From Rhodoferax sp. (GTDB lineage Bacteria; Pseudomonadota; Gammaproteobacteria; Burkholderiales; Burkholderiaceae_C): 64,000 bases of DNA. The stretch covers positions 1 to 64,000 of the forward strand of contig NZ_JAQTWL010000001.1 in assembly GCF_028689295.1 (NCBI RefSeq). Reading direction: 5' to 3'. The notes beneath the pieces were generated by a model that was given only the letters and a program-made list of their open reading frames with translations, ran no database searches and was not told where the DNA came from. Position numbers and translations under genes: made by a program. Position 1 is the first letter of the stretch; every line of letters starts with the position of its first letter. Positions 2,502-14,821 of this stretch are shown here, piece by piece.

Positions 2502-2574
2502 GCCACCAACGTCTGAATTCAGGGGCGACCGGCAGCTTTATCGCTGGGCGTCCCTTGAAATGATGGGTTAGCGC
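2502..2574 (-). other. attC-like integron recombination site, downstream of the PD-(D/E)XK gene
   Basis: Read on the minus strand, the site begins CGCTAACCCATCATTTCAAG and ends GTTGGTG, degenerate forms of the R-double-prime (RYYYAAC) and R-prime (GTTRRRY) boxes. Inside, the arm at 2518-2527 pairs with 2549-2559 and leaves one unpaired T at 2551, as in the extrahelical bases of attC hairpins. The upstream gene reads straight into the site and stops within it at 2519-2521. It shares the block CCCATCATT and the position of the bulged base with the site at 3095-3161. Assigned by eye; not scored with an attC covariance model. Confidence 0.6.
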
Positions 2575-3088
2575 GTCTTTCGCTCAATTGACGTTCGACG
2601 AGCGGCCAATTGTTCTCAAACCGCAACAAGTCCTCAACCCCATACCGATTGTCCAGAGACTTGTAATTGACAGGCCTCACCCATCCCTTCGGATCCATCC
2701 AACGTGTATAGGAAGCAATGCACGCCTCTTGAATATCAGATTTCTGGCAAATGAAAAACCGATCTGCAGCGCTGGTTTTGCCAAGCACGATACAAATGTA
2801 GATCAAATCTGGATGCTCTATGTTCTTAGGGCCACCATTGACTTGTTTTTTCGTTACTTCATCCATTTCGATATGGAGCCACATATCCGCGCGACTAGGC
2901 CACGTACTTCCACGAGAAGTCTTTACCTGAATCGGAATCGTCTGCAATGTGTCATCGCACACAAGAAGGTCATATTCGGGAACGTTGCCGGTGAAGGTTG
3001 TAGCGATGAATCCCCTGCGTCCGAGCTCTGCGCAGGCAAGGTATTCCCCGATCTGACCCGCGAGCTTATTTGAGAGACCTGTCGCCAT
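2519..3088 (-). CDS. Cassette-borne PD-(D/E)XK nuclease-like protein
   Basis: 189 residues. The N-terminal two thirds look like a compact Holliday-junction-resolvase-type PD-(D/E)XK fold: Glu15 in an IGEYLACAEL helix, Asp40 in EYDLLV, and Gln54-Val-Lys56 in PIQVKTSR, the usual E-D-(E/Q)xK layout. The family covers small DNA endonucleases and related DNA-binding proteins; the target is unknown. The C-terminal tail ANPSFQGTPSDKAAGRP is translated from the attC-like site that overlaps its 3' end, a common sign of integron cassette proteins. The gene starts 7 bp inside the boundary of the preceding attC-like site, so gene plus site make a compact cassette of about 0.6 kb. A role in defence or mobile-element competition is inference only. 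Confidence 0.7.
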   Translation of the reverse strand: MATGLSNKLAGQIGEYLACAELGRRGFIATTFTGNVPEYDLLVCDDTLQTIPIQVKTSRGSTWPSRADMWLHIEMDEVTKKQVNGGPKNIEHPDLIYICIVLGKTSAADRFFICQKSDIQEACIASYTRWMDPKGWVRPVNYKSLDNRYGVEDLLRFENNWPLVERQLSERRANPSFQGTPSDKAAGRP

Positions 3089-3094
3089 TTTGAT

Positions 3095-3161
3095 GCGCTA
3101 ACGTGGAGTTGATCGGCCTACGCGGCTTTTTGCGCAGGTCCGGTGGAATGATGGGCTAGCC
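3095..3161 (-). other. attC-like integron recombination site between two gene units
   Basis: Read on the minus strand, the site runs from GGCTAGCCCATCATTCCA to CACGTTAGCGC. The arm CGGCCTACGC at 3114-3123 pairs with GCGCAGGTCCG at 3132-3142 over nine base pairs, with one mismatch and one bulged T at 3139, around a short loop. The outer ends carry GCTAGC and GTTAGCG as degenerate R boxes. The stop codon of the upstream gene (TAG at 3156-3158) is part of the first box, and the next gene starts just beyond the last box. That is the geometry of a cassette junction. Confidence 0.65.
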
Positions 3162-4016
3162 ATTTTTTGGCGAAATACCTTCAACCACTTCAACGCCCAG
3201 CATGTTTCGCATGGGAATAAGTGACTGAGGGAGCTTTGATTCCAGGACAAGTAATGCTCGTGCGTTTTGTGGCCGTGACTCGGTGACCAATACTGCTTCC
3301 ATGACAGCCCGGTACTTAACGCACTGGAATAGCCCCCTGACAATATCGCCTTCAGCCGATATGGAGGACTTGACCTCCGCGGCTACCCAGACTTTTTTGC
3401 CATTAAATGAGACGTCCAGGCTGTCCCCAGACGGTAACGGAAATTCGGTGGTACCAGTTGGGGTGTTCGCGCCGAGCCCGATGACTTTTGGGTTCCGTGC
3501 GACATACGCCTTGAGAGCCTTGTGATCTTCGCTCTCGCCGCCACCGAAGCCGCCGGTAGCTTTGCTTACGAAAGGCGAGAAATCGGACGTTGTTGATTCA
3601 AGTTCGAGAGCATCGAGAACTTCATGCCATCGGGGGTACGAGAACACATGCTGAAGTTCTGCTTCAACGATTGCTCTCTTCTGTCGAAGCGGAAGCGTTG
3701 CAAAATCTTCTTTCTTCACGAGGAACCAACCGATGCCTTCTCCAGGCAGGCCCGTACTCTTGTTGACAACAAGGCATTGAATCGGTGGCACCTTGGATTT
3801 CCATGCTTTGGAAAGTCGCTCCAGAGACTGCCCGATGCTCCCAAGCACGTAGTTGAGGTTGCGCGGGTTAGGCATTCCCAACTCTTCAGCGAGACTGGAA
3901 TAGAAAACTGGAGCACCGGCCTTCGCTTGGCGGACAAGCAAAGGGAGTGCTGCGCGAGCTCTCACCTGATATGCCTTGTCTCCCGAGATTGGTTCAGAAA
4001 TTGTGGCAGTGCTCAT
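3156..4016 (-). CDS. PD-(D/E)XK nuclease-like protein with an N-terminal helical domain
   Basis: 286 residues from the ATG at 4016, chosen because GAGG stands 5 bases before it; an upstream ATG at 4064 would overlap the previous gene. Residues 20-110 look like a winged-helix-type DNA-binding segment (SLAEELGMPNPRNLNYVLGS). The C-terminal half carries a nuclease-like core: Asp201 in DSLDVSF, Glu214-Val-Lys216 in AAEVKSS, then a conserved-looking GLFQCVKYRAV helix at 228-238, as in restriction-endonuclease-like folds. It follows the trypsin-like protease gene by 19 bp, so the two are probably co-transcribed. Its stop codon lies inside the attC-like site. I do not recognise a named family. The pairing suggests a two-gene effector or defence unit, which is inference. 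Confidence 0.6.
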   Translation of the reverse strand: MSTATISEPISGDKAYQVRARAALPLLVRQAKAGAPVFYSSLAEELGMPNPRNLNYVLGSIGQSLERLSKAWKSKVPPIQCLVVNKSTGLPGEGIGWFLVKKEDFATLPLRQKRAIVEAELQHVFSYPRWHEVLDALELESTTSDFSPFVSKATGGFGGGESEDHKALKAYVARNPKVIGLGANTPTGTTEFPLPSGDSLDVSFNGKKVWVAAEVKSSISAEGDIVRGLFQCVKYRAVMEAVLVTESRPQNARALLVLESKLPQSLIPMRNMLGVEVVEGISPKNG

Positions 4017-4035
4017 GATGGCCTCGAACGTAGTG

Positions 4036-4809
4036 TTAGCAGTCTGCTTTTGTTTGACCATCAATAATCTCGTCGATTAGATGGGGCTTCCACACCACCC
4101 CCAACTGCGCTTCTAAAGATGACGCACCAAGCCGGCCCGAATATATGCCTGCGAACATGTCACCTTCGCCAAACCAATCATCATCTGCAATTTCTGTGGC
4201 CTGCGGATTGTTCTTATAGAACCCACGGTATCGAGAGATCACCGGAGAGCCAGACATGCCTGATCTCGTTGCTGTATCCACGAAATATTGTGGTTCAGAT
4301 GTTCCTGGTTCGGACGCGACGCTCGCCCGCTTCCAAACTGGTAGGCCGTGGGAGTTCATTATTCCCAAAGGGTAACCAAGGACAAACACATCGTGGGAGA
4401 CACGAAGACTCATCTTCTCGAACGGCATGTCATTTAGAACAATTGCTTTGAACTTTTCGCTTGGGGAAACAGGCAATGCTCCAATGTCTATCGCGCTGCC
4501 GGCAGTTGGATGGTGATACCACGCTGGGGTTCCATTTTCGATTAGCGATATGTCAAACCACTCGCGTTTGATGACTGGAGCGTTTAAGCACATGTAACAA
4601 GAGACGGCATCCGGAACCCCCCCATGATTTGCCAACGGCTTTCTGGTTATGGGATCTCTGCCGGAAAAGTTGTGCCAGTTAGAAATCAAGAACAGCCCAC
4701 CATTTCGGCGATAGAAAAAGGCAGTCCCAACAGCAAGTTCAGTAACTCCGAACTTCATCTTGATGAAGACCGGAACCTGTGAGAACGGGTCAGTCGCGAC
4801 GATGGCCAT
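4036..4809 (-). CDS. Trypsin-like (S1 fold) serine protease, cassette-borne
   Basis: 257 residues with no signal peptide, so probably cytoplasmic. The catalytic triad can be placed: His46 in SNWHNFSG, Asp108 in SAIDIGAL, and Ser186 in RSGMSGSPV, the GxSGSP nucleophile motif of trypsin/HtrA-fold peptidases. There is no PDZ domain, unlike DegP/HtrA. It is the first gene of a two-gene unit with the PD-(D/E)XK protein. The leader holds a perfect hairpin (4830-4849) 20 bp before the start codon, and no strong ribosome-binding site is visible. Stand-alone trypsin-like proteases occur in integron cassettes and in several phage-defence modules. The substrate is unknown; cleavage or activation of the partner nuclease is a hypothesis. 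Confidence 0.72.
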   Translation of the reverse strand: MAIVATDPFSQVPVFIKMKFGVTELAVGTAFFYRRNGGLFLISNWHNFSGRDPITRKPLANHGGVPDAVSCYMCLNAPVIKREWFDISLIENGTPAWYHHPTAGSAIDIGALPVSPSEKFKAIVLNDMPFEKMSLRVSHDVFVLGYPLGIMNSHGLPVWKRASVASEPGTSEPQYFVDTATRSGMSGSPVISRYRGFYKNNPQATEIADDDWFGEGDMFAGIYSGRLGASSLEAQLGVVWKPHLIDEIIDGQTKADC

Positions 4810-5318
4810 AGACTGCTAACTCAATATAAGGAGACAGCAACCTGTCTCCCTAACATGGCGCATGTCGCCGTAACACCGGAACAAAAAAACGACTGAAACC
4901 CGCATGGAATATAGGTCTCCGACGGCTTTCGTTCAATGGCAAGGGTCATAACAGTTCCAGAAATGCCAGCACGCGGATTTTTACGTCAACACGGGTGCCG
5001 GGTCAGTTGGGAGCAAATGTTTCGCCTGAACTATAGTCCATTGAGTGGCGCACCTGAATGACTCCCGCTGCAGCCCTTCGCGCGAACCAAGCTGACGATG
5101 TGAGCCAGAAACGTCGCCCGCAGAAATCGGGGACCATGCGCGACCCTCCGCCACAGAATTTGGTCCCCCAGCGTCCCAAAACCCCATTGGTGCGGTGCCT
5201 GAATCCCTGGTGGTCAGGTTTTATGATCAGACGCCGGGTGCCAAAGCGGTTGAAAGCTTTGGCATTGAATCTAAACTCGCACCATCTTTCTGAAACCAAC
5301 TTTTCAAGCTGACGCATC
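4810..5318. other. Gene-free stretch upstream of the cassette-like unit and purC
   Basis: No supportable gene. A perfect 8-bp hairpin, GGAGACAG/CTGTCTCC with loop CAAC, lies at 4830-4849. On the minus strand GTTAGGG occurs at about 4849-4855, the kind of box expected at the upstream boundary of an integron cassette, but no second pairing arm is convincing. Open frames on both strands between 5003 and 5312 have no recognisable domain and no good start, and may be decayed sequence. Confidence 0.45.
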
Positions 5319-14074: not shown

Positions 14075-14821
14075 ATGGAAAAAATCATCCTCATCACGGG
14101 CGGCGGGCGTGGCATTGGCGCAGCCTGTGCGCAGCTGGCAGCCCGGCAAGGCTACGCCGTTTGCATCAGTTTCATAGCCGATGAGGTCGCAGCCACCCAA
14201 GTCGTTTCCGCCATTGAAAGTGGCGGCGGCAAGGCGTTGGCGATCCAGGCCGACGTGTCTGACGAGTCTGATGTTGAACGCTTGTTCGGCGCGGTGGACA
14301 AGCGACTTGGGCGCTTGAACGCGCTCATCAACAATGCGGGCATTTTGTTTCCGCAGATGCGCGTTGAGCAAATGGATGCGGCGCGCATCAATCGTCTTTT
14401 GGCAATCAATGTGACCGGCAGTTTTTTGTGCGCACGCGAGGCCGTGCGGCGCATGTCAACCCGGCACGGCGGTCTGGGCGGCAGCATCGTCAACGTTTCT
14501 TCGCGCGCCGCAGTCCTTGGTTCGCCGGGAGAGTATGTTGACTATGCGGCCTCAAAAGCCGCACTGGACGCCTTGACGATCGGCTTGTCGAAGGAGGTGG
14601 CCAATGAAAAGATACGTGTCAATGGCGTGCGCCCAGGTCTGATTCATACAGCCATACATGCCAGCGGTGGCGAACCGGGCCGCGTCAGCAGGCTGCAGTC
14701 GTCGGTGCCCATGGCGCGCGGTGGCGATCCGCTGGAGGTGGCAAGGGCCGCACTGTGGCTGCTCTCGGATGAGGCCTCTTACACCACCGGATCATTCATT
14801 GACGTGTCGGGTGGACGTTGA
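14075..14821 (+). CDS. SDR family oxidoreductase
   Basis: 248 residues from the ATG at 14075, with GGAG 11 bases upstream. Classical short-chain dehydrogenase layout: ILITGGGRGIGAA (NADP(H)-binding TGxxxGxG), the NNAG stretch INNAGILFP, a catalytic Ser in VNVSSRAAV, and YAASKAA with Tyr and Lys. The end TGSFIDVSGGR is typical of FabG-like glucose/3-ketoacyl reductases. The natural substrate is unknown. It is a monocistronic gene upstream of the convergent tRNA-Pro gene. Confidence 0.92.
   Translation: MEKIILITGGGRGIGAACAQLAARQGYAVCISFIADEVAATQVVSAIESGGGKALAIQADVSDESDVERLFGAVDKRLGRLNALINNAGILFPQMRVEQMDAARINRLLAINVTGSFLCAREAVRRMSTRHGGLGGSIVNVSSRAAVLGSPGEYVDYAASKAALDALTIGLSKEVANEKIRVNGVRPGLIHTAIHASGGEPGRVSRLQSSVPMARGGDPLEVARAALWLLSDEASYTTGSFIDVSGGR

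Follow-up and report, generated by a model that had tools for sequence, protein, structure and literature searches.

Organization of the locus

The window, by which we mean the whole stretch of DNA that was analysed, comprises the first 64 kb of contig C20, part of a draft genome of 3.49 Mb that is ≈97% complete. Just upstream of purC, it contains an attI-type sequence, two attC sites, and genes with cassette-type limits, and of intI only a short relic is present (Table 1). Base 1 of the window is the contig end, which hides the far side of the array. An integron is a bacterial platform that captures genes, and a cluster of attC sites lacking an integrase is called a CALIN.

Table 1. Features of the array, listed from its head toward the contig end.
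Feature	Position	Strand	Basis
Decayed leader and remnant of the 5' end of a divergent intI (non-functional)	4920-5064	+	Alignment with the upstream side of other attI copies
attI	4816-4919	-	Model R2, 67.7 bits, E 3.1e-18 genome-wide; putative crossover G4820|T4819
Cassette 1, trypsin-like peptidase, 257 aa (gene 4036-4809)	4029-4819	-	Limits inferred from attI and the start of cassette 2
Probable collapsed attC (R'' TGCTAAC, ACTAC, GTT; stem lost)	4027-4041	-	By-eye comparison with the cassette start GTTAGCCAT
Cassette 2, nuclease-like protein, 286 aa (gene 3156-4016)	3102-4028	-	92% DNA identity to L178; ATG start as in homologues
attC of cassette 2 ("site 2"), degenerate	3096-3161	-	R1 51.9 bits, E 1.1e-11 genome-wide; R3 25.8 bits, E 4e-5 in 64 kb
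Cassette 3, 189 aa (gene 2519-3088)	2510-3101	-	ORF; weak PDDEXK_5
attC of cassette 3 ("site 1")	2504-2573	-	R1 36.8 bits, E 6.2e-7 genome-wide; R3 32.6 bits, E 3.6e-7 in 64 kb

The two attC sites

A sequence-only reading of this DNA had proposed attC-like sites at 2502-2574 and 3095-3161. Both are real and lie on the minus strand, with limits refined to 2504-2573 and 3096-3161. They have CCCATCATT in common, and their R''/R' boxes are CGCTAAC/GTTGGTG and GGCTAGC/GTTAGCG, where the R'' box of attC 3096-3161 reads AGC in place of the AAC of relatives. In the covariance alignment, 1 of the 14 modelled pairs is broken in attC 2504-2573 and 3 of the 14 in attC 3096-3161, and an extrahelical A occupies the same place in both sites, in agreement with the unpaired base reported in the same arm. 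Genes on the minus strand end inside the sites, as had also been claimed: the 189-aa ORF is translated into attC 2504-2573 as ANPSFQGTPSDKAAGRP, and the TAG stop codon of the other gene is in the R'' box of attC 3096-3161.

The covariance check was done with our own models rather than those of IntegronFinder. Model R1 was built from 14 aligned attC sites, with 14 pairs from the R and L boxes, taken from arrays of the same genome, of genus relatives, and of other relatives with intact intI; the window was left out. Four of these training sites (L008c, L103, L104, and L106) were first noticed through their similarity to the window, and the stricter model R3 comprises only the remaining ten. Both sites were matched above noise, and the result that had been named as speaking against attC sites, no covariance match at either one, was not obtained. 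The third-best match of R1 in the window reached only 12.1 bits (E 0.64), which is noise, and the next matches of R3 in the 64 kb beyond both sites scored 12.9 and 11.1 bits (E 0.32 and 1.1). In the genome-wide search, where 150 of 4569 first-look candidates were scored with R1, the window sites ranked 4 and 8 among the 16 matches listed at E up to 10. Free folding of both attCs was no better than that of shuffled sequence (z -0.28 and -0.90), compared to z values of -3.15, -3.63, and -5.29 for three relatives folded alongside. Both sites are degenerate attCs.

Three probable cassettes and their genes

The array probably comprises three cassettes, one of whose attC sites would have collapsed at 4027-4041. 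Cassettes had been proposed at 2506-3099 and 3100-4855; the two attCs of that proposal stand, whereas 3100-4855 more likely holds two cassettes and, in addition, the attI. The evidence for a third cassette is a motif of 15 bases. GTTAGCCAT precedes the gene for the 286-aa protein in the six relatives that served as comparison loci for the collapsed attC (L178, L179, L180, L181, L197, and L211), and the DNA before it differs among them. In the window, the gene for the trypsin-like protein ends in TGCTAACACTACG, followed by TTCGAGG, and the AGCCATT of L178 is absent. Cassette 1 has no recognisable attC stem, and there was no covariance match at 4027-4041. We infer that the junction of this gene with cassette 2 is an attC that has lost its stem.

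The 257-aa protein of cassette 1 matches Pfam Trypsin_2 (E 1.8e-7) and PADLOC PDC-S45 (E 1.3e-11), and its gene has homologues in 3 others of 349 genomes, as does the gene of cassette 2. The ORF listed for the latter (302 aa) begins 16 codons too early compared to aligned homologues, which leaves a protein of 286 aa. Its conserved pattern GDSLDV..EVKS..GLFQCVKY is read as PD-(D/E)XK-like, and its N-terminal part presumably resembles, by motif, an alkyltransferase-type DNA-binding domain. Pfam DNA_binding_1 was matched in 1 of 33 family members (E 0.018) and Tox-REase-9 in 5 of 33 (best E 6e-4); nothing convincing was found among solved structures or in PADLOC. The 189-aa protein of cassette 3, whose gene has homologues in 2 other genomes of the 349, matches Pfam PDDEXK_5 at E 0.01, below the family cut-off. 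The product of cassette 2 is probably a DNA-binding nuclease and that of cassette 1 a trypsin-like peptidase, and both may serve phage defence, a guess from family resemblance by which the cassette genes look like possible defence genes.

Directly past the last attC, a family 8 glycosyltransferase gene occupies 1412-2344. It has no DNA match in six genus relatives at E 1e-5, and it may represent a final, attC-less cassette or have been acquired separately.

The cassette 2 gene in other bacteria

We retained the best 80 of the 153 relatives of the 286-aa gene in genome contigs. The best segments stood at 93% in a betaproteobacterial MAG, 90% in a Pseudidiomarina MAG, 88% both in Pseudomonas sp. 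WN033 and in a gammaproteobacterial MAG, and 82% in Halomonas. The DNA of cassette 2 is 92% identical to L178, from a betaproteobacterial MAG, between window positions 4028 and 3154, and the limits of this identity are the base after the G|TT crossover (4028) and the R'' box. An attC match lies at the gene end, on the same strand, in 9 of the 80 best relatives (L178, L180, L185, L186, L187, L196, L203, L205, and L211); seven of these matches have E <0.001 and two are weak (L185, E 0.041; L203, E 0.31). The stop codon is inside R'' in eight of the nine, L187 being the exception. The gene is thus carried as a cassette by bacteria of distant lineages, too. R1 gave no attC match at the gene end, at E up to 0.5, in the other 71. 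Relatives of the protein were also present on 8 viral contigs (L258-L265), and in none of these was there an attC match at the gene end by the same search.

Between the window and L178, the gene is 92.1% identical, its fourfold sites 80.5%, and the attC interior 79% over 52 aligned bases (z ≈7). Exchange of the attC is therefore not needed for this pair. The window attC is nearest to attCs of the genus (81-85%, z ≈12), and that of L178 is nearest to other attCs (z 10.9). The sequence 3' of the gene in L179 and L197, with limits set by eye and no R1 match, is unrelated to the window attC (z <0), but the L179 gene agrees with that of the window at just ≈53% of fourfold sites. The coordinates of L197 and L211 hold frameshifts, and their identities are unusable in this comparison of fourfold sites and attCs. 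With regard to attC exchange, these comparisons are no more than suggestive.

attI and the intI relic at the head of the array

The sequence-only reading had offered a choice between a CALIN and the edge of a larger array. The first of these is supported, and the array also has a head, an attI and a relic of the intI start, at 4816-5064. Model R2, a sequence-only model of 12 attI copies from 8 genus genomes with the window left out, found attI 4816-4919 as its only match in the same genome at E up to 0.01. Window DNA at 4816-5009 is similar to two places in the relative G004, one of which is ≈100 bp from a broken integrase N-terminus, the spacing expected of attI. The attI is 83% identical over 63 bp to contig C41 of G004, and the region of the intI relic is 72% identical over 148 bp to contig C21 of that genome. 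Within this region, window 4944-5064 is 70.7% identical to L154 (E 3.6e-9) and window 4920-5009 is 78% identical to L156 (E 4.7e-14), and a relic of the intI start was further supported by multiple alignment with attI copies. The relic extends to roughly 5064, and its decay puts it beyond the reach of protein searches; no intI match was obtained anywhere in the window by tblastn at E 0.01, or near the array in a TIGR02249 search of the genome at E 1e-5.

A plain DNA query located the attI segment in 11 of 89 genus genomes. R2 matched in 25 of the 89, this genome included, at 46 places at E up to 0.01, of which 12 are the training copies. The maximum was six attI relics, in G004, followed by four each in G096 and G101. 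A copy in G101 (contig C48) is adjoined by a nearly full-length, frameshifted intI (64% to the genus IntI), with three attC matches downstream.

In 15 attI copies that were compared, the upstream side is common over about 90-290 bp; past the site, the first 200 bases showed no similarity between any two copies (blastn E 0.01). Two of the copies (L105 and L147) have 2.5 kb in common and represent one place in two species, and two pairs of copies share a segment ≈1 kb further downstream. Four copies (L104, L148, L150, and L157) have an altered GTT core, and L155 has an uncertain limit. Overall, a conserved upstream side followed by variable cassettes is consistent with attI-like behaviour, as in a complete integron. 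A reading of these sites as ends of a mobile element was dropped, because the repeat shared by the surroundings of L149 and L155 turns up at unrelated positions in L146, L148, L149, and L156 as well.

Kinship with class 1 integrons received no support from plasmid records, and the plasmid-type attI1/intI1 DNA of that class was not found. Against 72,556 plasmid records, window 4780-5200 gave short matches only, in 82 records, with E at least 1 among the 15 listed and none from enterobacteria in the organism tally, and the L105 attI region had no plasmid match at E 1. The window attI may resemble attI1.

The purC-fba neighbourhood

We looked for an empty site in other genomes, where purC, fba, brnTA, and VapBC were identified by eye among the ORFs. 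In G003 and G010, purC comes after fba across an empty gap of about 120-165 bases. A BrnTA-like pair and an attC match (24.1 bits) are present between fba and purC in G021, and a VapBC-like pair in G023. The G021 case is not claimed to be the same integron, because its attI resemblance amounts to 11 exact bases (E 0.08) and there was no R2 match. In the genome of the window, fba is on another contig (C69), so that the place is rearranged and offers no clean empty site. The fba-purC gap (L061, L058, L059, and L060) is a possible insertion hot spot.

Integrases elsewhere in the genome

A search for an intI gene outside the window had been suggested. Remnants were found, all of them split or partial, and no full-length intI was found in the ≈97% complete draft, although a copy may have escaped assembly. 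A split intI adjoining attCs lies between era and recO (C20:117206-117793), 114 kb from the array, and a C-terminal piece adjoining an attC lies beside ftsZ (C23:45613-45792), these neighbours being named by eye. In a search of 60 genomes, intI above the family cut-off was present in six of the same genus, one of them partial. R1 matched attCs at about eight places in the genome, the window included.

Origin of the array

We conclude that the feature is, very probably, a decayed sedentary chromosomal integron, and formally a CALIN, because of the attC and attI matches, the intI relic, and the cassette limits shared with relatives. The attC-bounded cassettes without an integrase gene agree with the CALIN assignment of the sequence-only reading: our own covariance models, not IntegronFinder's, gave at least two attC sites, and no intI was found nearby at E 0.01 (tblastn, window) or E 1e-5 (TIGR02249, whole genome). 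Of a complete integron, the array has cassettes ending in attCs with R'', L'', L', and R' boxes and an extrahelical base, in degenerate form, and a 5' relic in place of a functional intI.

In the history that we propose, a formerly intact IntI would have inserted circular cassettes at the attI crossover (G4820|T4819), with the newest cassette next to attI and the cassette genes reading away from purC. All but a short initial stretch of the intI gene would then have disappeared, one attC would have collapsed, and the other two would have drifted; the three genes would now be fixed because of these losses.

An integrase from elsewhere could instead have inserted the cassettes into a non-classical chromosomal site (attG) that was never an integron platform. 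Such an insertion has been published (Loot et al., 2024, as cited in PMC12901181), and integrase remnants exist elsewhere in the genome, one of them with an array 114 kb away on the same contig. However, an attG is a chromosomal site without attI, and the head of this array carries an attI of a recurring type and traces of the intI start, which makes this origin improbable. We give equally little credence to an array that is still active, with an integrase from another locus of the genome acting on it in trans: attC 2504-2573 retains 13 of the 14 modelled pairs and the genome has several attC clusters, but no full-length intI was found in the draft, and the intI genes that adjoin attCs are split or C-terminal. 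Ordinary repeats or chance palindromes at gene ends, with which the weak free folding of both attCs would accord, are hardly conceivable in the face of the covariance matches with a window-blind model, the attI, and the sharp cassette limits in relatives.

The decayed chromosomal integron resembles systems described in the literature. It is like a CALIN of IntegronFinder 2.0 (PMC9024848) in having two attC sites and no integrase gene, and differs in that the definition there asks for no trace of attI or intI and the array retains both; it is a CALIN traceable to a former integron through its attI. Pseudo-integrons (Nemergut et al., 2008; PMC2426708) likewise have a decayed integrase, whereas that of the array is almost wholly gone and one attI type recurs at many places in the genus. 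In the same survey, pseudogenes made up almost one-third of the intI genes, and multiple integrase genes were present in 20% of bacteria. Decayed integrons, CALINs, and genomes with several integrases have already been described (PMC9024848; PMC2426708), as has the likeness of attCs within a taxon (PMC8352920).

Less expected are the number of relics that one attI type has left across a genus and the occurrence of one gene with several attC types; excerpts of the open-access (PMC) literature yielded no report of either pattern. A tentative explanation, which we regard as possible and rather doubtful, is that a genus platform (intI start plus attI) has been repeatedly copied or re-inserted at differing sites in the chromosome, each relic with its own first gene, and that cassettes swap their attC at R'' across hosts and adopt the host type. 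Were this so, it would offer a way into the question of how cassettes form. The origin of cassettes was without a reliable model as of 2016 (PMC4792948), and a gene that occurs with several attC types bears on this problem.

The era-recO integron and other attC clusters

The integron between era and recO in the same genome (C20, about 117-124 kb; L008) has a split intI and more attCs than the array (five in L008, one of them at E 0.22), and its attC at L008:14951-15017 has 21 exact bases in common with attC 3096-3161. Unlike the array, it has no attI match by R2 at E up to 10. Further attC matches in the genome are at C25:896 and 2420, C51:30024-33151, C20:92951, C20:255136-256355, C23:14667, and C23:135157. 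No intI relative was found (tblastn E 1e-3) in the stretches examined around them, C20:92951 and C23:14667 excepted; the stretch around C23:14667 has a tyrosine-recombinase-like match.

By eye, the first genes of the era-recO integron (L008:10983-12340, C20 ≈118 kb) encode a TIR-type protein and then a caspase-like protease, with an attC match 3' of them (L008:12378-12449), and they are possibly a defence pair carried as a cassette. On C23 (L009:12595-14616), the intI fragment beside ftsZ is followed by cassette-like genes, named by eye, and an attC match (14556-14616). This array includes a BrnA-like antitoxin, a close relative of which lies between purC and fba in G021 (L059:3802-4203).
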